A stretch of DNA of 64,000 nt from Plantactinospora soyae (GTDB taxonomy: Bacteria > Actinomycetota > Actinomycetes > Mycobacteriales > Micromonosporaceae), in NCBI RefSeq assembly GCF_014874095.1, contig NZ_JADBEB010000001.1:4340001-4404000 (forward strand). Reading direction: 5' to 3'. The position numbers and the translations under genes were made by a program. The number at the start of each line of letters is the position of its first letter. Positions within the stretch are counted from its first letter, which is position 1. Under the pieces are notes generated by a model. That model was not told where the DNA came from, did not search any database, and saw only the letters and a program-made list of their open reading frames with translations. Positions 4,425 through 58,508 of this stretch are shown piece by piece.

Positions 4425-5330
4425 ATGTCCAATACACCAGTCATCGAAGTCGAGCGCCTGAACCTCACGTACGGCGACTTTCACGCGGTGCGGGACCTCT
4501 CTTTCGAGGTACGGCGGGGGGAACTGTACGCGCTGCTCGGCACCAACGGGGCTGGGAAGACCTCGACGCTGGAGACCATCGAGGGACACCGGAGGCCGAC
4601 CTCCGGCACCGTGCGTGTCTTCGGGCACAGCCCGCAGGACCGACGCGCCGTACGTCCCCGGATGGGCGTGATGCTCCAGGAGAGCGGGTTCTCCCCGGAC
4701 CTGACCGTCCGCGAGTCCGTCGGTCTGGTCGGCCGGCTCACCCGGCGTACCGACGACGTCGACCGGTTACTCGACCTCGTCGACCTCACCGACCGGGCCG
4801 GCCGGAAGGTGTCCCAGCTCTCCGGCGGGGAGAAACGACGGCTGGACTTCGCGACCGCCGTCTACGGAACACCCGAGCTGATCTTCCTGGACGAGCCGAC
4901 CACCGGCCTGGACATCCAGTCCCGCGACGCCGTGTGGGCGACGGTGGACCGGGTGCGTGAGAACGGCACGACCATCGTGCTCACCACGCACTACCTGGAG
5001 GAGGCGCAGCAGCGCGCCGACCGGATCGGGTTGATGCACCAGGGCACCTTCCACCGGGAAGGCACGGTCTCCGAGCTGACTCGCACCCTGCCGGCGGTCA
5101 TCCGCTTCTCCCTTCCGACACCGACACCGACACCGACACCGCCGTCGCCGTTGCCGTTGCCGTTGCCGGCTGTCGTAGACGCCGACGGGAAGGTCATGGT
5201 CGAGACCTTTGCTTTGCAGGAGGACTTGCATCTCCTGCTCGGGTGGGCGCACGAGCACGCCGTGGAGTTGCGGGGTCTGGAGGCCGGGGCAACCCGGCTC
5301 GACGACGTGTTCCGCGCCATCAGCAGCTGA
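4425..5330 (+). CDS. ABC transporter ATP-binding protein (ABC-2 exporter type)
   Basis: The 301-residue ATPase has Walker A (GTNGAGKTS, about residue 40), a Q-loop (MLQESGFSP), signature LSGGEKRRL, Walker B (LIFLDEPTTGLD) and the switch His in TTHYLEE. It resembles DrrA/CcmA-type drug or lipid exporter ATPases. A C-terminal extension (about residues 230-301) is joined by a repetitive Pro-Thr/Pro-Leu linker encoded by short tandem repeats. ATG 4425 is chosen because the domain starts immediately after it and the same start context recurs at 10,314; the in-frame ATG at 4380 lies inside the operator. The permease follows 26 bp downstream. The divergent DesKR-like pair probably controls it. Confidence 0.93.
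   Translation: MSNTPVIEVERLNLTYGDFHAVRDLSFEVRRGELYALLGTNGAGKTSTLETIEGHRRPTSGTVRVFGHSPQDRRAVRPRMGVMLQESGFSPDLTVRESVGLVGRLTRRTDDVDRLLDLVDLTDRAGRKVSQLSGGEKRRLDFATAVYGTPELIFLDEPTTGLDIQSRDAVWATVDRVRENGTTIVLTTHYLEEAQQRADRIGLMHQGTFHREGTVSELTRTLPAVIRFSLPTPTPTPTPPSPLPLPLPAVVDADGKVMVETFALQEDLHLLLGWAHEHAVELRGLEAGATRLDDVFRAISS
5115..5168. repeat. Short hexamer repeats encoding a proline-rich linker
   Basis: Four perfect copies of CCGACA (5115-5138) are followed by three perfect copies of TTGCCG (5151-5168). They lie in frame within the ATPase gene and encode alternating Pro-Thr then Pro-Leu residues. Gain or loss of a unit would change the linker by two residues without shifting the frame. Confidence 0.9.
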
Positions 5331-46296: not shown

Positions 46297-48579
46297 TCAG
46301 GACGCCCGGGCCAGACGCGTACGCGCCGCCGACACCACATAGTCGATGCCGTGCGCGGTGCCGATGTCCAGCGCCGCCTGGAAGTGCCGCGCCGCAGCGT
46401 CCCGATCACCCGTGACCAGGCACGCCTCCGCGTACGGGAGGAGGCTGAGCACCACCCGATGGGGTTCACCGGCCCGTTCGAGAATGTGTACGGCCTCGGC
46501 GTGCCGGGCCGCCGCCTCCTCGGTGCGGCCGAGGTGGCGCAGGGCGACGGCGGCGTCGGTGAGGCTGGCCGCCTCGAGAATCGGGTGGCGGGTCACGCGG
46601 TTGAGTGCGACGGTCTGCTCGGCGAGGTCGAGGGCGGTCCGGGCGTCGCCCAGGCCGAGTGCCGCCCGGCCGAGCACTTCCAGGCACCAACGTTCCGTCT
46701 GCCGGTCCAGTCCGCGCGCGGTCTCGATCACCTCCGTGACGACCTGGCGGGCGTCGTCGTACTTTCCCAGCTGCACCAGCGCGAGGCCGAGGCCGGTACG
46801 CACCCGCACCAGGACGGCGGCCTCGCGGGGTGAGAGCAGCACGGTCGCCTGGTGCAGGAGCTCGACGGCACCTTCGGCGTCGGCCGTGTACAGCCGGATG
46901 TCCGCCAACTGCAGAAGCGTGAGAGCCTCGCTGATGACGTCGCCCTCCGCAGCCATCAGCACCCGGGCCGCCTCGAGCTCCGGCACCGCATCCGCCAACC
47001 GGCCGACCCGCAACAGCACGGCGCCCAGCAGGTACCGGTGCGAGGCGAGTACGCGACGATCGCCGAGCCTCTCTGCGGCGGGCATGCTGAGCTCGAGCCC
47101 GCGGCGCAGCTGCGCCGTGCCACCGCGACGCGCCTCGGAGATCGTCGCGAGCTGGGCGAGCCCGACCGCCGGCGCGTCGATGCGCAGCTCCACCGCCAGC
47201 GAGAACGCCGTTGTGAGGTTGACCCACTCGGTCTCCATCCAGTCGACGACCTTGTCGTAACCGGAGAGGTCGGGAAGCGCGGGAGGCGGCTGCGACACGA
47301 TCACCGGCAGCGGGATGAGGATCTCGACCAGCTTCTTCACGGCCAGCATGCCGCTCAGGTAGTAGTCGGCGAGCCGGGTGATCGCGGGTACGGGGTCAAG
47401 CGCGGCATCGTCGGCGCGGGCGACCTGCCGCAGCAGGTCGTGCATCCGGTAGCGACCCGCCGCCGGCTCCTGGACCAGATGGGCGTCGACCAGGTCCTCC
47501 AGCAGGGCACGGGCGTTGGCCAGCGGGATCCCGGCCAGGGCAGCCGCACCGTACGCGTCGATGTCCTCGCCCGGCACCAGCCCCAGCAGCCCGAACATCC
47601 GCCGCTGGGCGGGATCGAGCTGCCGCAGCGACATCTCAAACACGTCCGACACCACCGGCCCGCCCTCGCGCAGCCGCTCCACCAGGGTGTCGAGCGTCCA
47701 CGCGGGCCGGTGCCGCAGCCGCGCGGCGGCCACCCGGATCGCCAGCGGCAGGTTCCCGCACCGGCGCAGCACCTCGCCGACGTCACCCGGCCGAGCCCCA
47801 CCCGCGGATTCGACGAACAGCTCGGCCGCCTCCTGGATCGGCAGGACGTCCAGCGAGATCGGCTGGACGCCGTCCAGCTCCACCATCCGCCGACGGCTTG
47901 TGATCACGACGAAGCTCTGGCCGGCGCCGGGCAGCAGGTCGCGTACGTGCTCGGCGTCGGCGGCGTTGTCCAGCAGCACGATCGCGCGCCGCGTCGCCAA
48001 CTCCGACCGCCACAGCGCGGCCCGCTCGGCGACCCCGTCGGGAATCCTGCCGGGTGGCAACCCGAGCACGGCCAGCAGCACCCGCAGTGCCTCCGCGGGC
48101 TCCACCCGCTCCCGGCCCGGCGTGAACCCGTGCAGATCCAGGTAGAGCTGGCCACCGGGGAAGTCGGCGATCAGCAGGTGCGCGGCGTGTACGGCCAACG
48201 CGGACTTACCCACCCCGCCCATGCCGTCGATCGCCACCACCGACGTGTTCCGCGCGGCGCGGAGGAGGACGTCCAACTCCGCCCGGCGTCCAGTGAACGC
48301 GGTGATGTCGTGTGGCAGGTCGTTGCGTACCGTCGCAGTGGCGACCGTATCCGTCTGCGGCCCGTCCTTGGCCCGCTCCCACACCTCACGCAGTGGCCTG
48401 GGGTCTCGACCAGCCGCCCTGCAGAGCGCCACCACCGTCGGCCAGGGTGGAACGGCCTGGCCGGAGAAGTAGCGCGACAGCGAGGAGCTGCTGACGTGGA
48501 TGTCGCGGGCGAGCTCGCGCAGACTCCGTCCGGTCAGCTCACGTAACTGCCGTAGCCGTCCCGCCAACTCCTCGCGCAC
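46297..48579 (-). CDS. XRE helix-turn-helix/NB-ARC/TPR regulator (STAND protein)
   Basis: The 760-residue protein has an XRE-type helix-turn-helix at residues 8-60 (LRQLRELTGRSLRELARDIH, then SSLSRYFSGQ). An NB-ARC ATPase follows with Walker A GMGGVGKSAL (119-128), Walker B RAIVLLDNAAD, VITSRRR and the GNLPLAIRVAAARL GxP-type motif. About 350 residues of TPR-like helices complete it. GTG 48579 is chosen because it opens the HTH and has GGAGGAAGG upstream; longer frames lack support. STAND proteins of this kind switch on after ligand binding at the TPRs. It is divergent from the SARP gene with 186 bp between, suggesting mutual control. Confidence 0.9.
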   Translation of the reverse strand: MREELAGRLRQLRELTGRSLRELARDIHVSSSSLSRYFSGQAVPPWPTVVALCRAAGRDPRPLREVWERAKDGPQTDTVATATVRNDLPHDITAFTGRRAELDVLLRAARNTSVVAIDGMGGVGKSALAVHAAHLLIADFPGGQLYLDLHGFTPGRERVEPAEALRVLLAVLGLPPGRIPDGVAERAALWRSELATRRAIVLLDNAADAEHVRDLLPGAGQSFVVITSRRRMVELDGVQPISLDVLPIQEAAELFVESAGGARPGDVGEVLRRCGNLPLAIRVAAARLRHRPAWTLDTLVERLREGGPVVSDVFEMSLRQLDPAQRRMFGLLGLVPGEDIDAYGAAALAGIPLANARALLEDLVDAHLVQEPAAGRYRMHDLLRQVARADDAALDPVPAITRLADYYLSGMLAVKKLVEILIPLPVIVSQPPPALPDLSGYDKVVDWMETEWVNLTTAFSLAVELRIDAPAVGLAQLATISEARRGGTAQLRRGLELSMPAAERLGDRRVLASHRYLLGAVLLRVGRLADAVPELEAARVLMAAEGDVISEALTLLQLADIRLYTADAEGAVELLHQATVLLSPREAAVLVRVRTGLGLALVQLGKYDDARQVVTEVIETARGLDRQTERWCLEVLGRAALGLGDARTALDLAEQTVALNRVTRHPILEAASLTDAAVALRHLGRTEEAAARHAEAVHILERAGEPHRVVLSLLPYAEACLVTGDRDAAARHFQAALDIGTAHGIDYVVSAARTRLARAS

Positions 48580-48765
48580 TCTTGCCAGCCTTCCTCCAGC
48601 GTCACGCGCTGATCCTAGAGTGAGGGGGCCAAGGCCGGTGCCGGGCCGTCCCCGCATAGATCGCGGGCGTGCCTCGACCGACGGTGGGGCCACCGATCCG
48701 GGTACGCAGCCTCGATGCCCGGTCCGGCGATGGTGCCGGCTGCTCTGCTCGACTAGATAGAGGTA

Positions 48766-51735
48766 ATGAGATTCGGATTGCTCGGACCGGTGGTCGCCTG
48801 GTCCGGAGGGCGCGCCGTGCCGGTCGGCGGCGCCCGGGAGCGGTACGTGCTCGCCACGCTGTTACTCAACGCCGACCGGCTGACACCGGCCGATCGGCTC
48901 GTCAACGCACTCTGGCCACAACCGCCCAGCTCCGCGCGGGCCCAGTTGCACAACCTGGTGAGCCGGCTGCGTGGCCGGGTCGGTGGCGGAGTCATCCTGA
49001 CCAGGCCGACAGGCTACGAGCTCAGCACCGCCGGGGCGGAGGTGGATCTACTCGACTTCCGCGAACTGGTCGAGCGGGGTCGGCGGGCGGCGGCGACCGC
49101 TGCTTTCGCGCCCGCCGAGGCGTTGTTCAGTGAGGCGTTGGCGCTGTGGCGCGGCTCGGCCCTGGCCGACGTCGCCGACGAGTTGGCCGGCCCGGCCCGG
49201 GTGGCCCTGCACGAGGAGCGGCTGGCGGCCCAGGAAGCCCGGCTGGGCTCCCGTCTCGCGTTGGGCCGCCACGACGAGGTGTTGGCCGACGTGACACCCC
49301 TGATCGCGGAGCATCCGTACCGCGAGCGCCTGTACGAGACGCAGATGCTCGCGCTGGCGGCGGTGGGGCGGCGAGCCGACGCGCTGCAGCTGTACCGCGA
49401 GGCGTACCGGAGGTTCGATGAGGAGTTGGGGGTGACCCCCGGTACGGCACTACGCGCACTGGAACGGCGCATCCTCGCCGGCGAGGTTTCCACCCTGGGC
49501 CACGCGGCGCCTGTGGTCGTACCCCGTGAGCTGCCGCCGGAGATCTCCGTGCTGACCGGTCGGAGCAAGCTGCGCGCGGAGATCGCCGGGGCGTTGCGCC
49601 ACCACGGCGGCGGCGGTCCCTCGGTCGCCGTCCTGGTCGGCCCCGGCGGCGTCGGTAAGACCGCGCTGGCGGTGGTGACCGGGGGTGCGGTGCTCGACGC
49701 CTTTCCAGATGGTCAACTGTTCGCGAACCTGCGGGGGTCGCACCGCGACCGGGCCGATCCACACAGTCTGCTCGGGCGGTTCCTGCGTCGACTCGGCGTC
49801 GGGGACTCGGCGGTACCGGACGACCCGGACGAGCGGATCGGACTGTACCGCAGCACCCTCGCCGAGCGCCGGCTGTTGCTGGTCCTGGACGACGCCGGCG
49901 CCGAGGCCCAGGTACGCCCACTGCTGCCGGGCAGCCCGTCCTGCGCGATTCTGATCACCTCGCGTTACCAGTTGGGGGCGCTGCTGGACGCAAGACGCTG
50001 GACGGTTCCCGCGCTGGACCCCGAGGACTCGGTGGAGCTGCTGGCCCGGATAGTCGGGGCGGACCGGGTCGCCGCCGAACCGGTTGCCGCGAGCGCGGTC
50101 GTCACGCTCTGCGGCAACCTGCCGCTCGCCACCTGCGTGGCTGCCGGTCGGCTCGCCGGACGTCCGCGGTGGAGTCTGGAGAAGTTCCGGGACCGGCTGG
50201 CGCGCGAGCGCGGGCGGCTCGACGAGTTGGCCCTCGGGGATCTGGACGTCCGGGCCAGTATCGCGACGAGTTACCAGCTGTTGGAGCCAACGGCCCGGCT
50301 GCTGCTGCGTCGGCTCGGCCTCCTCGCCACACCCGACTGGCCGGCCTGGGTCGCCGCCGCGTTGCTCGGCGACGACGAGGACGCGCTGTCCGGTCGGCTG
50401 CTGGAGACGTTGGCCGACGTCCACCTGATCGAACCCCTCGGTGCGGACCCGGTCGGTCAGGACCGGTTCCGGCTGCACGACCTGATTGCCGACTTCGCCG
50501 CCGAACGCGCCACCGCCGAGGAGAATCCGGCCGACCGGGACGCGGCGCTGACCCGGGTGTTGTCCGGATGGTCGGGGCTGGCCGCCATCGCGGACGAGCG
50601 AATCGGCCACAGCTTGCAGGGTGCCATCGGGCTGCCGGTTCCGCCGGTGCCGTACGGCGCCGAAGGTCCGGCCCGTGACGCGCCGCAGCAGTGGTTCGAG
50701 ACGGAGCTGACCGCGCTGACGGCCACCGTGGAGCAGGCCGGCGAGTCGGGTGACGCCGAGATCACCAGTGGACTCGCGCTGCGCATGGTGGGCTTTCTCG
50801 CCCTGCGGACCTATGACGTCGAGCGGGAACGGGTGCTCCGCGCGGCCGTCGCCTGCGCCCGCGCGCATGGCGCGGATCGGTATCTGGTCCGGCTGCTGCT
50901 CAGCCTGTTCGGGCTGGCCGCGCAGCGGTCACGCTTCACCGAGCTGCCCGAGCTCGCCGCGGAGGGGCTTGCGCTCGCCCGGAAACTGGGCGATCGACTG
51001 GGCGAGGTAGGCGCGCTGGGCAACGCCGGCTGGGCGGCCCAGAGCGTCGGCCGGCTCACCGAGGCCGCGGAGTGGTTCCGTGCCGGGCTCACCGCGTGCG
51101 GCGAGGACACTCCGCCGGATCTCGTGCGGTGGCTGTCGTTGTCGGTCGTCCGTACGCGGCACGAGGCCGGTCAGTCCGCGCAGGCCGTTCCGCTGGTCGA
51201 ACGGCTGCTGGCCGATCGGCGGCCGGCGGACTCCCCGCGTGCCACCGCCCAACTCCTCACCCTGGGCGCCGACGTGCTGCTCGGGGTCGGTCGGACCGAC
51301 GACGCGGAGCGGGCGCTGATCGAGGCGGCGCAGATCCTCGACGGCCTCAACGACGAACTCGGACTCTCCCACGTCGATCACGCCATGGCCGGAGTGCACC
51401 TGTCCCGCGGTGAGTGGGTCGCCGCCGAGGAGCGACTGGCCCGGGTGCTGCCGGTGCAGGAGCGGCTGGGCGTCCGGGTCGAGCTGGCCGGCACGCTGCG
51501 TACGTACGGCGACCTCGAACTCGGTCGCGGTCGGAAAGCCGCCGCAGCCGAGCTGCTGCGCCGGTCGCTGGAGATCTGGCAGGAGATCGGCGCGGAGTTG
51601 GAGGCCATCCGGACGCTCGCCCGCCTGGCGCACTGCGATCCGGCCTCGGCAGCCGCCACGCGCGGTGAATGTCGACGGGTGCTGCACGATCTGGGCCTGA
51701 CGGACGACGCGCTGCGCCTGCCCGGGTACCTGTGA
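48766..51735 (+). CDS. SARP-family (AfsR-like) BTAD/NB-ARC/TPR regulator
   Basis: The 989-residue protein has an OmpR-type winged helix (residues 1-90: FGLLGPVVAWSGGRAVPVGG, then LVSRLRGRVGGGVILTRPTG). A bacterial transcriptional activation domain follows (95-240: YRERLYETQMLALAAVGRRADALQLYREAY). The NB-ARC has Walker A GPGGVGKTAL at 292-301, Walker B LLLVLDDAG and ITSRYQ. TPR helices run to the end (GALGNAGWAAQSVGRLTEAAEWFR). This is the AfsR architecture. A SARP-box-like repeat lies directly downstream, in front of the wall-hydrolase genes, making them its first candidate targets. Confidence 0.95.
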   Translation: MRFGLLGPVVAWSGGRAVPVGGARERYVLATLLLNADRLTPADRLVNALWPQPPSSARAQLHNLVSRLRGRVGGGVILTRPTGYELSTAGAEVDLLDFRELVERGRRAAATAAFAPAEALFSEALALWRGSALADVADELAGPARVALHEERLAAQEARLGSRLALGRHDEVLADVTPLIAEHPYRERLYETQMLALAAVGRRADALQLYREAYRRFDEELGVTPGTALRALERRILAGEVSTLGHAAPVVVPRELPPEISVLTGRSKLRAEIAGALRHHGGGGPSVAVLVGPGGVGKTALAVVTGGAVLDAFPDGQLFANLRGSHRDRADPHSLLGRFLRRLGVGDSAVPDDPDERIGLYRSTLAERRLLLVLDDAGAEAQVRPLLPGSPSCAILITSRYQLGALLDARRWTVPALDPEDSVELLARIVGADRVAAEPVAASAVVTLCGNLPLATCVAAGRLAGRPRWSLEKFRDRLARERGRLDELALGDLDVRASIATSYQLLEPTARLLLRRLGLLATPDWPAWVAAALLGDDEDALSGRLLETLADVHLIEPLGADPVGQDRFRLHDLIADFAAERATAEENPADRDAALTRVLSGWSGLAAIADERIGHSLQGAIGLPVPPVPYGAEGPARDAPQQWFETELTALTATVEQAGESGDAEITSGLALRMVGFLALRTYDVERERVLRAAVACARAHGADRYLVRLLLSLFGLAAQRSRFTELPELAAEGLALARKLGDRLGEVGALGNAGWAAQSVGRLTEAAEWFRAGLTACGEDTPPDLVRWLSLSVVRTRHEAGQSAQAVPLVERLLADRRPADSPRATAQLLTLGADVLLGVGRTDDAERALIEAAQILDGLNDELGLSHVDHAMAGVHLSRGEWVAAEERLARVLPVQERLGVRVELAGTLRTYGDLELGRGRKAAAAELLRRSLEIWQEIGAELEAIRTLARLAHCDPASAAATRGECRRVLHDLGLTDDALRLPGYL

Positions 51736-51870: not shown

Positions 51871-52881
51871 ATGAGAGCCAGAGTTCGACAGGGCGTGCGA
51901 CAACTCGCCGTTATCGCCGCCTTGGTGACGGGACTTGCCGGCGCGGCGGTCAGCACCGCGACGCCGGCTCAGGCCGCGGTGACGGTACGGGTCGAATCGA
52001 CGATCACCGCGCATGATCTGCCGTACCTGAACAGTCCCTACATCGAGGGTTCGGCGTTGAGTGCGGGGCAGTACGTCTCCGTCGAGTGCTACATCCGTGG
52101 TCGGGAGTACGTCGGCGACAACTTCTTCTGGTATCGGATCAACACCAGGTACTATCCGGCGTACGCGATTGCGACGGCGACCGGAATTCCTCAGTGTGGT
52201 GGACCGTCGACGGTGCCGTCAGCGGCCAACGGATACAGCAGCCCATCGTTTGACGCGCCCTTTGCCACCGGATGGTTCGACTCCAACGAAACTGTCCAGG
52301 TTCTCTGTGTCGCCGCCGGCCAGACCTACAACGGCAGCAATGCCTGGTACTTCGTCAAGGGCTACTTCCTGCACGCCAGCCGGCTCGCCACCCGCCCCGC
52401 GCTCTACACCTGCCGGGGCTTCAGCACGCCGGGGGACGAGGTGGCGGCAACGATCGCCGCGGCGTCCAGCATGGTCGGCAGGTACCCCTATTCCTGGGGT
52501 GGTGGCAACCAGAACGGCCCGACCTACGGCATCTGCTGTAGCCCGAGCGGCCACGACGACCGCGACGTCTACGGCTTCGACTGCTCCGGCCTGACGCAGT
52601 ACGCCTTCTACAAGGGCGCCGGGGTCAACATCGGCGGGGACTCGAGGTCGCAGTACAGCAACGGCTATCGGGTTCCGTTCTCCCAGCGCAAGGCGGGTGA
52701 CCTGATCTTCTGGTCGAACAGCAGCCTGTCGCCGAGCGCGATCCACCATGTGGCGATCTACGTCGGTGGCGGCTACATCATCGAGGCCACCCGGGCCAGC
52801 AGCGGTCCCCAGGTCCGCAGGCGCAGCTTCAGTGCGGGCGAGTCCGGCGTGATGCCGGCCGTCGTCCGGCCAATCCGTTGA
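51871..52881 (+). CDS. Secreted NlpC/P60 peptidoglycan hydrolase
   Basis: The 336-residue protein has a signal peptide (residues 1-36, ending TPAQAA). Two SH3b-like wall-binding repeats lie at about 37-181. The NlpC/P60 domain (about 190-330) has catalytic Cys238 in YGFDCSGLTQYAF and His293 in IHHVAIYVGGGYI, and would cut gamma-D-glutamyl-diaminopimelate bonds. Extra Cys pairs (ICC, DC) sit near the active site. ATG 51871 follows GGAGGA. Residues about 33-188 are identical to those of the next protein, while the catalytic domains differ. The promoter looks SARP-controlled. Confidence 0.93.
   Translation: MRARVRQGVRQLAVIAALVTGLAGAAVSTATPAQAAVTVRVESTITAHDLPYLNSPYIEGSALSAGQYVSVECYIRGREYVGDNFFWYRINTRYYPAYAIATATGIPQCGGPSTVPSAANGYSSPSFDAPFATGWFDSNETVQVLCVAAGQTYNGSNAWYFVKGYFLHASRLATRPALYTCRGFSTPGDEVAATIAAASSMVGRYPYSWGGGNQNGPTYGICCSPSGHDDRDVYGFDCSGLTQYAFYKGAGVNIGGDSRSQYSNGYRVPFSQRKAGDLIFWSNSSLSPSAIHHVAIYVGGGYIIEATRASSGPQVRRRSFSAGESGVMPAVVRPIR
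51962..52434. repeat. 473-bp direct repeat, copy 1
   Basis: This copy matches 52990-53462 with only four base differences by my reading, all at silent third positions. It encodes the end of the signal peptide and both SH3b-like domains. The offset between copies is 1,028 bp. Confidence 0.97.
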
Positions 52882-52907
52882 CCCCGACCGACACGAGAAG
52901 GTGCCGA

Positions 52908-53852
52908 ATGTCGAAACACATCGCCGCCCGGGTGGTCGCCGCCGTGGGCCTGCTGGTTGTCACCGCCCTCGGGCAGGCGGCGACCGCCGCGCCGGCTCAG
53001 GCCGCGGTGACGGTACGGGTCGAATCGACGATCACCGCGCATGATCTGCCGTACCTGAACAGTCCCTACATCGAGGGTTCGGCGTTGAGTGCGGGGCAGT
53101 ACGTCTCCGTCGAGTGCTACATCCGTGGTCGGGAGTACGTCGGCGACAACTTCTTCTGGTATCGGATCAACACCAGGTACTATCCGGCGTACGCGATTGC
53201 GACGGCGACCGGAATTCCTCAGTGTGGTGGACCGTCGACGGTGCCGTCGGCGGCCAACGGATACAGCAGCCCATCGTTTGACGCGCCCTTTGCCACCGGA
53301 TGGTTCGACTCCAACGAAACTGTCCAGGTTCTCTGTGTCGCCGCTGGCCAGACTTACAACGGCAGCAATGCCTGGTACTTCGTCAAGGGCTACTTCCTGC
53401 ACGCCAGCCGGCTCGCCACCCGCCCCGCGCTCTACACCTGCCGGGGCTTCAGTACGCCGGGGAGCGTGACCAACGACTACCCGTACCGGGGTCAGACGTC
53501 GGGCGTCGACCGATGGAACTTCTACAAGGGCCAATGTACGTCCTTCGTGGCGTGGCGGCTCAACGACCGCAACAACATCGCGTTCCACAACTACTACCGA
53601 TCCGTCCACTGGGGTAACGCCTACAACTGGGAAAATGCCGCGCGCAGTGCCGGAATCACCGTCAACAGCACGCCGAGAGTCGGCTCCGTCGCACAGACCG
53701 ACAGCGGTTCCGGACACGTCGCGTGGGTGGCGGCGGTGCACTCCGACGGGACCGTGACGGTCGAGGAGTACAACTACGCCACCCCCAGCGCGTACGGCAC
53801 CCGCCGGGTGAGTAGCAGCAGATTCGTCTACCTGCACTTCCCTCAGGCCTGA
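52908..53852 (+). CDS. Secreted CHAP-domain amidase/endopeptidase
   Basis: The 314-residue protein has a signal peptide (residues 1-33) and the same two SH3b-like domains as the preceding protein (about 34-186). The CHAP domain (190-314) has Cys210 in YKGQCTSFVAWRL, His270 in SGHVAWVAAV and Glu287/Asn289 in TVEEYNY. CHAP enzymes cleave peptidoglycan as amidases or endopeptidases. ATG 52908 lies 27 bp after the NlpC stop, so the two are one operon. A perfect hairpin follows the stop. The pair gives one wall-targeting module with two different cutters. Confidence 0.93.
   Translation: MSKHIAARVVAAVGLLVVTALGQAATAAPAQAAVTVRVESTITAHDLPYLNSPYIEGSALSAGQYVSVECYIRGREYVGDNFFWYRINTRYYPAYAIATATGIPQCGGPSTVPSAANGYSSPSFDAPFATGWFDSNETVQVLCVAAGQTYNGSNAWYFVKGYFLHASRLATRPALYTCRGFSTPGSVTNDYPYRGQTSGVDRWNFYKGQCTSFVAWRLNDRNNIAFHNYYRSVHWGNAYNWENAARSAGITVNSTPRVGSVAQTDSGSGHVAWVAAVHSDGTVTVEEYNYATPSAYGTRRVSSSRFVYLHFPQA
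52990..53462. repeat. 473-bp direct repeat, copy 2
   Basis: Partner of 51962-52434. The identity ends abruptly at the linker before each catalytic domain (STPG), and upstream at the Ala-rich end of the signal peptide, so the repeat corresponds exactly to a domain module. Confidence 0.97.
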
Positions 53853-53855
53853 CAA

Positions 53856-53893
53856 CCCGGTGGACTGTCGCGACGCGGCGGCAGTCCACCGGG
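53856..53893 (+). terminator. Perfect 12-bp hairpin after the CHAP gene
   Basis: Arms CCCGGTGGACTG and CAGTCCACCGGG enclose a 14-base loop and begin 3 bases after the stop. Confidence 0.9.
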
Positions 53894-54083
53894 CTCGGGG
53901 GCCCTGGGCGATCGGTGGCTACGTGGGCGGATTCGACGCGGGCGCGGAGAGTCACGTGCCGGCCGTGGCGCGTTCGAGTTGGTGGATCAGGCGGTGCGCG
54001 TTGGGTGCCGGTGCGCCTCGGCTGCGTTACGCCGCCCGCGAACCAGCTTGTCGCAACGCCCCATTCGCTGATCGACTAGGTCG

Positions 54084-55202: not shown

Positions 55203-58040
55203 TCAGCCGGGAAGGGTCTGCCGGGCGATCTGTTCCTGGAGTGCGTCGGCTTCCCCGCCACGGTGCTGCATTCGCAACAGGGTCAGCGCCCGCCCCCACG
55301 CCTGGCGAGCCTCGTCGCGCCGGCCCAGGCTCGCGTACAGCTCACCGAGGCTGACCAGACAGTCCACCTGCCCCCGGGCGTTGTCCACGCCGTCGTACAG
55401 CTCCAGAGCCTGTCGGAAATGAGCCAGCGCCTCGGTGTGCTGACCGGTGCGGTGCGCGATGAAGCCGAGGCTGTGCAGCGTGTCGGCCTCGGCGTCCGGG
55501 TGCGGGTGGCTCCGGAGCACGGCGGCCGACTCTGTGCACGAGGTCCAGGCCTGCTCGTACTGACCGAGTTGGGCGTGCGCCCAACCGACGGCGTTGAGCC
55601 CACGGGCCTCCTCCACCGGGTCGATTCCCAGCCGCCGGAATATCCGCAGACCCAGCAGGGCGTGCAGCAACGCCCGCCGGCCGTCACCTCGCCGGCCCCA
55701 GGTCACGTGCAGAGCACGGTGGGCACGGGCCTGCTCGGCGACATCGCCGGCCCGGCGAGCCTGGCTGATCGCCCAACGCAGGTGTGCGGTGGCCGCCCGG
55801 TCGTCGACCAGTGCCTCGGCGGCCTGTCCCAGGTAACGGTGCGCGACTGCCTGGATCGCCCGGTTGCCCTCCTCCCGTGCGGCCGGCAGCGTGACCCGCC
55901 AGACCATGACCTGGTCGTGCCCGCGATTGCCACGCACGTGGAAGGTGGTCATCGCCTGGGCGAACTGCCACACCTGCGAGTGCAAACCGAGTTGTCCGGC
56001 GAGCTGCTGCACGGTGAGCAGGTGGCTGTGCTCGCGGTCGAACCAGGTCATCGCCTCGGCCCGGCTGCGCAGTGGCAGGGGGACGCAGCCCGGTGGCGGC
56101 TCGCCGACCGGGACGGGGGCCCGGCGCGGATCCAGCAACTGATCGGCGGCACAGGCCGTATGCAGGTAGAACTCGACCAGGCGTCGCAACGCCGCCGCCC
56201 GCGCCGGGGCGTCGGCCGTCCGGTCCACCTGCTCGCCCGCGTACAGCCGGACGAGGTCGTGCATCCGGTAGCGGCCAGGCTCGTGCTGTTGCACCAGGTG
56301 GGTCAGCTCCAACTGCCGTAGCAACTCGCGGACCCGGGGTTCCGGCTCGGCCGCGAGGCTGGCCACGGCGGCGAGGCTGAGGTCCTCGGTCGGCGCCAGT
56401 CCGAGCAGGCCGAAGGTCGCTGCCGCGTCGGCGCGGAGCGCCTGCAGGGACCAGGAGAAGACAGCGCGCAGGTTGACGGTCAACTCGCCCGCGTCCAGCG
56501 CGTCGAGCCGGGTCGACGTGTCGGCCAACTCGCCGGCCAGCATCCCCAGCGGCCACAACCGCCCGGTGGCGGCCCGGGCGGCGACGATGCCGAGCGCCAG
56601 CGGTAGGCCGGCACAGTGGTCGAGGAGGACCCCGACCGCCGCCGGCTCGGCGGCCAGCCGGTCGCGGCCGAGGTGACCCGCCAACAGCTCCCAACTTTCC
56701 CCCGGGCTCAACATGTCGAGGGTGATCAGACGGGCCCGGTAGGTGGCGGCCAGCCCAGTCAACTGGAGTCGGCTGGTGACCAACACGGTGCAGGTGGGGC
56801 TGCCCGGCAGCAGAGGCAGAACCTGACCGGTGTCCCGTGCGTTGTCCAGCACGATCAGCAGGCGTCGACCGGCGACCAGGCTCCGATACAGCCCCGCCTG
56901 CGCGTCCGCGTCGACCGGTACGGCACTCGGATTGACGCCCAGGGCCGCCAGGAAACCGCGCAGTACCAGGGAGGGCGGCACCGGGTCGGGACCGGGTCCG
57001 AAACCCCGCAGGTCGGCATAGAGCTGACCATCGGGGAACCGGTCGAGGTGGGTGTGCGCCCAGCGCAGCGCCAGGGAGGTCTTGCCGACTCCGCCCGAGC
57101 CGCCGATCGCCGAGATCACCACTGTCGTACCCGATGAGCTCTGGTCTTGCGCCGCGTCGTCGAGCGAGACCAGTTCGTCGACGCGGCCGGCGAACAGGCC
57201 CGGTGGCGCGGGGAGCTGGCGCGGAATCACCGAACGTCCCAGCGGTCCGGCGTCCCCGGCCGACGGTGGTGTCGGGTCGACATCCGGTTCGGGCACCAGG
57301 TCGAGGGCCGGATCGGTGGACAGGATCCGCTGGTGGAGTTGCCGCAAGGCGGGCCCCGGATCGGCACCGAACTCCTCAGCCAGTACCAGCCGGGTCTGCT
57401 CGTACCGCGACAGCGCCTCGGCCTGCCGCCCGCCCCGGTACAGCGCCAGCATCAACTGGCCGGCGGCCCGCTCGTCGAGCGGGCGTGCCACGACCCGGGC
57501 CGACAGCTCCGACAACAGCTCGTTGTGCCGGCCACGCCGCAGCGCGAGGTCCGTGTGAACCAGCTCGGCTTCGAGTCGCTGCTGGTTGAGCCACTCCCGC
57601 ACGCCATCGCCCCACGGAGTGTCGAGGCCGGCGAGGGCCTCCCCCCGCCACAGCCCGAACGCCCGCTCGAACAACGCCAGCGCCTGCTCTCCGTCGCTCA
57701 CCGACCGTGCCTGGCCGACCAGCCGACGAAACCGGTGCAGGTCCACCGTCAGCTCGTCGACCGCGATCAGGTAGCCACCGGAACGGCGGACGATGTCCAC
57801 CCCGGGCGCGCCCGAGAGGGTCCGGCGCAGCCGGGAGAGATAGCTGTGCAGGGTGTTCCGTACCGTGTCCGGCGGCCGGTCGCCCCAGACCCGGTCGATA
57901 AGCTGATCGGGTGCGACGAGCTGGTTGGCGTCGACCAGCAACGCCACCAGCACAGCTCGCTGGCGGGCGTGACCGAGGGGAAGACGTCGGCCGTCAACTC
58001 GGACCTCAACCTCGCCGAGCAGGCCGAACCCTACCGTCAC
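55203..58040 (-). CDS. SARP-family BTAD/NB-ARC/TPR regulator
   Basis: The 945-residue protein starts at GTG 58040 behind GGAGGAGG, exactly at the OmpR-type winged helix (FGLLGEVEVRVDGRRLPLGHARQRAVLVALL). The BTAD covers about 100-245 (RAAGQLMLALYRGGRQAEALSRYEQTRLVL). A Pro/Asp-rich linker (245-275) precedes the NB-ARC, with Walker A Gly-rich GGSGGVGKTSL around Lys320, Walker B LLIVLDNARD and HCAGLPLALGI. Six or more TPRs follow (GWAHAQLGQYEQAW, GFIAHRTGQHTEALAHFRQAL). It converges with the epimerase gene. The likely target set is unknown; the divergent side faces the helveticin-like gene. Confidence 0.95.
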   Translation of the reverse strand: MTVGFGLLGEVEVRVDGRRLPLGHARQRAVLVALLVDANQLVAPDQLIDRVWGDRPPDTVRNTLHSYLSRLRRTLSGAPGVDIVRRSGGYLIAVDELTVDLHRFRRLVGQARSVSDGEQALALFERAFGLWRGEALAGLDTPWGDGVREWLNQQRLEAELVHTDLALRRGRHNELLSELSARVVARPLDERAAGQLMLALYRGGRQAEALSRYEQTRLVLAEEFGADPGPALRQLHQRILSTDPALDLVPEPDVDPTPPSAGDAGPLGRSVIPRQLPAPPGLFAGRVDELVSLDDAAQDQSSSGTTVVISAIGGSGGVGKTSLALRWAHTHLDRFPDGQLYADLRGFGPGPDPVPPSLVLRGFLAALGVNPSAVPVDADAQAGLYRSLVAGRRLLIVLDNARDTGQVLPLLPGSPTCTVLVTSRLQLTGLAATYRARLITLDMLSPGESWELLAGHLGRDRLAAEPAAVGVLLDHCAGLPLALGIVAARAATGRLWPLGMLAGELADTSTRLDALDAGELTVNLRAVFSWSLQALRADAAATFGLLGLAPTEDLSLAAVASLAAEPEPRVRELLRQLELTHLVQQHEPGRYRMHDLVRLYAGEQVDRTADAPARAAALRRLVEFYLHTACAADQLLDPRRAPVPVGEPPPGCVPLPLRSRAEAMTWFDREHSHLLTVQQLAGQLGLHSQVWQFAQAMTTFHVRGNRGHDQVMVWRVTLPAAREEGNRAIQAVAHRYLGQAAEALVDDRAATAHLRWAISQARRAGDVAEQARAHRALHVTWGRRGDGRRALLHALLGLRIFRRLGIDPVEEARGLNAVGWAHAQLGQYEQAWTSCTESAAVLRSHPHPDAEADTLHSLGFIAHRTGQHTEALAHFRQALELYDGVDNARGQVDCLVSLGELYASLGRRDEARQAWGRALTLLRMQHRGGEADALQEQIARQTLPG

Positions 58041-58508
58041 GCCGACCTCCTCCAGCCCCGGTTGTCGCCAACTCATTGATAGCAGGCAGTGCCGGCCGCT
58101 CGTACTCCAATACTCGCAAACGGCACCTACTCGCGGCATCCGAAGGTCGCCACTGGACCGCATCGGCATCGCCGTCCCCGACCAGGACCTGGTGCCGGAA
58201 CATCCACCTCCGCCAGACCGGTCACCCGAAGCCCGAGGGCGCGGACCGACAGATGGCGATGACAGCGCCCGCTGCCAGGAGTCCGGACTCTCGAACGCCG
58301 TCCGACCGTCGGGGAACGCCTCCCGGTACAACGCCACCGCGTACGCAACCGTTCCGCGGGCATTCCCAGGTGAGGCACGGATAGCGTTTCGCGGGCGCTT
58401 CCGTGAGCCTCGTCGACGCCTTGACCGCCCTACCGTCGCGCAATAGCCTGCACTCGACGATCTCTGAGGCGCCCGGCCTCAGGTCGTCGAAAGCCTGGGG
58501 AGGACAGC
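58041..58508. other. Divergent intergenic region with remnant sequence and one promoter
   Basis: A minus-strand stretch near 58,270-58,340 reads VALYREAFPDGRTAFESPDSW, which resembles a SnoaL-like protein fragment, but no start, catalytic core or intact frame is present. The promoter of the following gene is listed separately. No gene is supported. Confidence 0.4.
58421..58449 (+). promoter_or_regulatory. Sigma-70-type promoter of the helveticin-like gene
   Basis: TTGACC (58421-58426) and TAGCCT (58444-58449) are spaced by 17 bp, the optimum for the housekeeping sigma factor. The start codon at 58509 leaves a leader of about 50 bases with GGGGAGGA before the ATG. Confidence 0.7.

Follow-up and report, generated by a model that had tools for sequence, protein, structure and literature searches.

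How do two neighbouring genes that encode different predicted peptidoglycan-cutting enzymes come to carry almost the same N-terminal module? The question arises from a 64,000-nucleotide stretch of the Plantactinospora soyae genome, here called the window, in which an NlpC/P60 gene (gene A) and a CHAP gene (gene B) lie on the same (+) strand with a gap of 26 bp between them (Table 1). An initial annotation of this DNA had described a 473-bp direct repeat with four silent differences in the two genes, and ungapped comparison at an offset of 1028 reproduced it: the copies differ at positions 52221, 52317, 52326 and 52425, every one of them a silent third codon position. No other repeat was recovered when the window was compared with itself by BLAST (E <= 1e-20).

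Table 1. Features of the two-gene locus, in window coordinates.
Feature	Position	Strand	Description	Basis
Gene A	51871..52881	+	Predicted secreted NlpC/P60 peptidase with N-terminal module, 336 aa	ORF and Pfam
Gene A signal peptide	51871..51975	+	Residues 1-35, ends AQA	Sequence; cleavage site by eye
Module repeat, copy 1	51962..52434	+	In gene A	Ungapped comparison
Module half 1	51973..52206	+	SH3-like by profile	hhalign against ten SH3b-type domains, E 1.4e-4, probability 52%
Module half 2	52207..52434	+	SH3-like	Homologous to half 1; alone E 0.0032, probability 10%
NlpC/P60 catalytic domain	52435..52878	+	In gene A; predicted C238, H293, E305	
Gene B	52908..53852	+	Predicted secreted CHAP hydrolase with the same module, 314 aa	ORF and Pfam; ATG at 52908 by eye
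Gene B signal peptide	52908..53003	+	Residues 1-32, differs from that of gene A	Read from sequence
Module repeat, copy 2	52990..53462	+	In gene B	Ungapped comparison
CHAP catalytic domain	53463..53849	+	In gene B; predicted C210, H270, E287 (also N289)	
Hairpin, 16-bp stem	53856..53893	+	Directly 3′ of gene B	Folding

The ends of the repeat had been said to coincide with domain borders, and this is what we observe. Specifically, the 5′ border falls by eye on the last residues of the signal peptides, and the 3′ border lies in the linker ahead of the catalytic domains. The accompanying statement that the genes show no similarity outside the repeat holds for the signal peptides and the catalytic domains, which differ, but it needs two qualifications. 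The DNA match reaches a few bases further in the 5′ direction (480 bp at 98.75%, starting from 51955), and the Pfam CHAP model gives a sub-threshold match to the NlpC domain of gene A (E 0.006). The two catalytic domains may be distant relatives.

Four differences over approximately 116 silent sites amount to a pS of 0.034, with a range of about 0.009-0.088 for a Poisson count of 4. Synonymous divergence inside and outside the repeat was compared, as the initial annotation had advised. The first 25 aligned codons of genes A and B have a pS of 0.5 (55% identity), against 0.034 for the repeat; the value is 0.12 in the second window of this comparison, and 0 from codon 26 until the four differences. 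Because the signal peptides are unlike, we rejected, for the window, simple tandem duplication of the entire gene front. An ancient duplicated module, kept identical through selection alone and without copying, is in keeping with the silence of four of the four differences, an outcome that has a probability of 0.004 by chance without constraint. However, about 112 of the 116 silent sites are unchanged too, and since selection on the protein would not preserve unchanged silent sites, we consider this explanation highly improbable. We propose that purifying selection has held the module proteins identical since a recent copying event.

Also weighed was an assembly artefact that put one and the same module copy into both genes. 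A repeat of 473 bp exceeds some short-read lengths; however, the genome is a single 9.7-Mb contig and the copies differ at four sites, which makes collapse of the assembly unlikely and led us to reject it. Furthermore, the same arrangement is found elsewhere, including the G831 and G656 genomes (G numbers denote genomes, L numbers loci), which are in one or two contigs. An artefact is hardly credible.

The first 259 bp of the repeat are identical and all four differences lie further 3′, a skew that a simple calculation rates at p 0.04. A run test on codons found the silent differences not to be significantly clustered (p 0.21), and the skew is thus no evidence of a tract. Four scattered silent differences with this outcome also fit simple drift after a recent, one-off duplication that fused the module to the neighbouring gene, with no conversion afterwards, an alternative that is taken up below with the pairs of other genomes.

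Gene A matched the Pfam family NLPC_P60 (PF00877) over residues 206-312 (E 9e-20, 71.1 bits against a curated cut-off of 23), and gene B matched CHAP (PF05257; E 5.5e-19, 68.9 bits against a curated cut-off of 26). The C, H and E columns are invariant in all six rows of the gene A alignment (A3) and in all ten rows of the gene B alignment (A2), and we take the residues listed in Table 1, including N289 of gene B, to be those of the active sites. On this basis we propose that gene A encodes an NlpC/P60 endopeptidase and gene B a CHAP amidase/endopeptidase, both predicted to act on peptidoglycan. NlpC/P60 (C40) peptidases of the RipA/RipB type have the catalytic domain and the C-H-E residues in common with gene A, whereas their N-terminal module is another one and gene A reaches the cut-off of none of the nine NCBIfam families listed.

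The nearest relatives found for the two catalytic domains lie in another family (f36), in genus g93: G880 for the NlpC domain (70%) and G883 for the CHAP domain (72%). In six of the seven g93 genomes that have both domains the two genes occur only apart, each with its own version of the module; the seventh, G883 (Phycicoccus Soil748), additionally has a neighbouring pair. These nearest catalytic relatives carry a different, single SH3b module. Across family f36, an NlpC domain at E <= 1e-24 occurs in 15 of 186 genomes, and 11 of these 15 have a CHAP domain at E <= 1e-10. Judged by such domain comparisons, the catalytic domains of genes A and B are shown to have separate histories. For genes with separate catalytic histories, a nearly identical module (pS 0.034) points to recent transfer from gene to gene, and copying of the module between genes A and B is well supported by these comparisons.

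What the module might do was approached through profiles. Pfam and NCBIfam scans assigned no family to it, and no SH3 family matched at E <= 1. Each half was run separately with hhalign against the SH3b-type domains of ten CHAP relatives (Table 1). The halves resemble one another (27% identity, BLASTP E 3e-6), and both keep a P, C, G, W, C pattern when aligned with these ten domains. Among the relatives scanned with Pfam, seven match SH3_3, six of the seven below its cut-off. A profile made from both halves and the ten relatives matches SH3-like wall-binding domains of known structure (8b2f/g/h/s; E 1e-14 to 1e-15), a match that rests mostly on the relatives because they supply ten of the 12 profile rows; the window module alone gives E 0.43 against 8b2f. 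The module is likely a tandem of two diverged SH3-like domains, and its weak profile similarity to such domains suggests that it probably binds the cell wall.

A second module type is likewise combined with both cutters. Inhibitor_I36-like N-terminal modules occur on relatives of both hydrolases (at L006 by Pfam, at others by eye), and L035 has, by eye, four such copies ahead of an NlpC domain. The window genome has two further places that encode SH3b-like domains (C1:309289-309513 and 4711986-4712189).

The module itself is found in the window genome at these two places only. A search of six other genomes of the genus did not recover it, and 353 other genomes of the family gave no further copy apart from one doubtful weak match in G011 (E 3.2e-4, 33%, internal stop), which we took to be chance; no secreted hydrolase was seen by eye at that locus. 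A scan of genome contigs with the module found nothing. In addition, five congeners showed no syntenic stretch among the 40 candidates scored per genome (of 744-980), and these scored matches to the window locus (64-91%) lie mostly in the upstream regulator gene. This distribution, together with catalytic domains that are both nearest to genomes of family f36, is consistent with a pair acquired intact by horizontal transfer from a donor in which the sharing had already arisen. Such a transfer leaves the module identity itself unexplained, and the nearest relatives bear a different, single SH3b module. We regard it as quite possible if tentative, and as compatible with copying between neighbours. 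A phage or plasmid origin was rejected: the module had no match at E <= 0.01 in phage (50,697) or plasmid (72,556) records, nor any in viral contigs.

In the search for comparable pairs, a contig scan with the CHAP alignment gave 79 loci among its best 80 of 107 matches, with an NlpC relative (BLASTP, E <= 0.01 in the flanks) beside one of them (L064). Five NlpC neighbourhoods (L169-L173) were examined as well; L169-L172 had no neighbouring CHAP relative and no self-repeat of at least 100 bp, and L173 is the G583 region. A sample of 266 genomes was drawn from the class; 65 of them had an SH3b match at E <= 1e-5, and apart from the divergent pair of G401, one new neighbouring pair of unlike hydrolases whose modules are alike was seen (G583). 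Short neighbouring SH3b frames were also seen in G543 and G559.

Seventeen regions were inspected, 16 in family f36 and one in family f19 (G583). Neighbouring genes with SH3-type modules and differing C-terminal parts are present in 14 of the 17, and the modules of neighbours match by DNA in eight of these 14 and not in six, a ratio that is no frequency because the regions were picked for the matches that lay there. Module DNA is 99.1% alike over 227 bp in G773, 97.9% over 243 bp (some flank within) in G770 and 95.2% over 293 bp in G831, all three NlpC with CHAP, and 98.2% over 338 bp in G656, an M15-like gene with M23. Lower values were found in G883 (82.4% over 216 bp; divergent genes), G583 (80% over 710 bp), G834 (77.2% over 224 bp) and G922 (73.4% over 233 bp). 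The catalytic pairings in the eight matching regions are NlpC with CHAP, M15-like with M23, M15-like with CHAP, and M23 with NlpC, the M23 part of G583 being assigned by eye. The partner-gene labels M15-like and VanY-like (G656, G834, G923, G879, G880, G881 and G401) are our presumption from motifs; the M15-like parts of the G656 and G834 genes had no Pfam match, and the partner genes of G746 and G747 are without an assigned catalytic family, with none in Pfam for that of G746. Intergenic gaps were measured in six more same-strand pairs outside the window and span 23-65 bp. Just 3′ of the G583 hydrolase pair is a perfect 76-bp direct repeat (L173:4872-4947 and 5069-5144).

The alignment of pairs in relatives, also advised at the outset, thus reveals that nearly identical neighbouring modules recur in G770/G773, G831 and G656. 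Other neighbours retain separate modules: G879, G880, G881 and G401 have SH3b on both genes and lack a long DNA match, the best being 81% over 59 bp and 80% over 64 bp, and G746 and G747 have neighbours with unlike module types. As read from these present-day modules, homogenization of neighbours is therefore episodic and not a rule. No pair was recognized in G772, G884 or G923, the last of which has a 73% self-match of about 174 bp.

Trees of 34 SH3b modules were constructed from protein and from DNA. In both, the module pairs of G656, G834, G831 and G883 cluster by locus with support of 97-100 (100 and 99 for G656); the G922 pair does not group, and four of five SH3b cases thus pair by locus. 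Separate clades comprise eight non-neighbouring NlpC modules (support 99 and 100) and four VanY-like modules from neighbours of CHAP genes (100 and 100). With clades named after inspection of the tree, the AU test rejected one clade per catalytic type (CHAP2, p 0.004; M15-like, p 0.007; all NlpC, p 9e-6). It did not reject placement of the neighbouring NlpC module of G883 with ordinary NlpC modules (p 0.35) or a clade of the G922 pair (p 0.2). From locus to locus the catalytic domains remain similar (CHAP2 64-76%, M15-like 69-76%).

A comparison between species was possible for G770 and G773. In the flanks of the module, N-versus-C differences are mostly common to both species, so that the gene pair predates the species split. 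Within the 225-bp module there are zero fixed N-versus-C differences, and one site has changed in both copies of one genome. Module dS is 0.019 and 0.019 within the genomes and 0.058 and 0.019 between species, values from few sites that make for a weak test because the between-species divergence is close to that within genomes. Between-species dS in the catalytic domains is 0.066 and 0.080. The values do point the way that conversion predicts. Silent differences gave clustering p values of 0.08-0.39 in five of six pairs, and 0.049 in G656 before correction for six tests.

These pairs bear on the one-off duplication without later conversion. The repeats of G656 and G583 take in the signal peptide and start at or before the start codon, as partial duplication of a 5′ gene end would have it, and these two may be partial duplications of the gene front. 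The window and G770/G773, however, have differing signal peptides although the module matches, and the change seen in both copies of one genome of the G770/G773 comparison, a single site, argues in the same direction. We judge a one-off duplication to be unlikely for the window, though worth keeping in mind. The choice first offered, between recent duplication or swap and ongoing conversion, can be narrowed: recent copying is supported (pS 0.034), but in the window repeated conversion cannot be distinguished from a single recent event because no relative with the window module was found.

The explanation that we favour, and hold to be probable, is that genes A and B constitute a set that equips two cutters with one wall-binding module, the module having been copied recently between neighbours by ectopic gene conversion. 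Both genes would be older fusions with separate catalytic histories, and the whole module of one would have overwritten its neighbour's by recombination, a step that would need only homology between two older modules in adjacent genes. A tract that ends where homology ends would account for repeat borders at the edges of domains and for signal peptides that differ. Both proteins would be exported and then bound to the same wall ligand through the common module, where NlpC/P60 and CHAP enzymes would cut different peptidoglycan bonds. In this account we infer that the module binds the wall, that the genes are co-transcribed, that the copying took place by conversion and that common targeting is of benefit.

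A more general proposal would be that gene conversion in actinobacteria repeatedly keeps the modules of neighbouring, catalytically different wall hydrolases alike, with the lytic set retargeted together. One module would change, and the neighbour's module would then be overwritten with the new version. Such retargeting would lead to what is seen between the window and Phycicoccus Soil748, in which the NlpC domains are 61% and the CHAP domains 72% alike and the modules are quite different and shared by locus. We consider this general proposal doubtful.

An arrangement of this kind is known from modular polysaccharide hydrolases. Multimodular glycoside hydrolases of Caldicellulosiruptor bescii are described as linking different N-terminal catalytic domains to nearly identical modules; three enzymes are given as having identical GH48 domains, and two CBM3b modules of one enzyme as over 99% alike (PMC6892212). 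In the account given there, as in the window, one organism has nearly identical modules on different catalytic domains, whereas the C. bescii enzymes concern plant polysaccharide and CBMs and the window concerns peptidoglycan and an SH3-like module (PMC6892212). A module-walking study describes one SH3-like wall-binding domain that occurs on more than one muramidase family and binds bacterial cells (PMC10394673). The domains of 8b2f/g/h/s resemble the window module in that one module type serves several catalytic types; unlike those of the window, proteins of the 8b2f type are fungal and belong to other catalytic families (PMC10394673). The mtrA-1/mtrA-2 genes are presented as a case of prokaryotic concerted evolution with fusion and domain shuffling, and like the window they keep duplicated sequence alike despite both (PMC6053082). 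Concerted evolution is long-lasting in the pairs of that paper and episodic in the wall hydrolases described here, and the main text of the paper names no hydrolase or wall gene (PMC6053082). Our literature search, which covered titles and abstract openings and left most subscription papers outside, found no description of conversion among peptidoglycan hydrolases and none of the version reported here.

Module exchange of the kind that enzyme engineers carry out manually is seen here in natural genomes: its limits fall at domain boundaries, and a single probable binding module serves two catalytic chemistries. Several lineages can now be used to ask whether adjacent genes are retargeted jointly by conversion. 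Moreover, trees of multidomain wall hydrolases can mislead unless the module and the catalytic domain are analysed separately.

The surroundings of the pair were also examined. Rfam searches at E <= 1 found no known RNA element between 51000 and 54500, and at ten relative loci they returned one tRNA and nothing else. The hairpin that follows gene B is strong (-46.2 kcal/mol for 60 nt, z -6.08, with none of 200 shuffles equally stable; this was the sole stretch folded). It is probably the end of a two-gene transcript, and its strength makes a single transcript of genes A and B likely. From 53897 to 53997, in the approximately 100 bp 3′ of gene B, the window has an 81% match to contig 114 of a congener (G001), where synteny of the surrounding locus is not visible. 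Three large NB-ARC/TPR regulators surround the pair (46300-48693 on the - strand, 48766-51732 on the + strand and 55206-58337 on the - strand). Two of the three have a BTAD domain and one has HTH_31, and we take the BTAD regulators to be of the SARP/AfsR type by name. The regulator at 48766-51732 stops about 135 bp 5′ of gene A, on the same strand.
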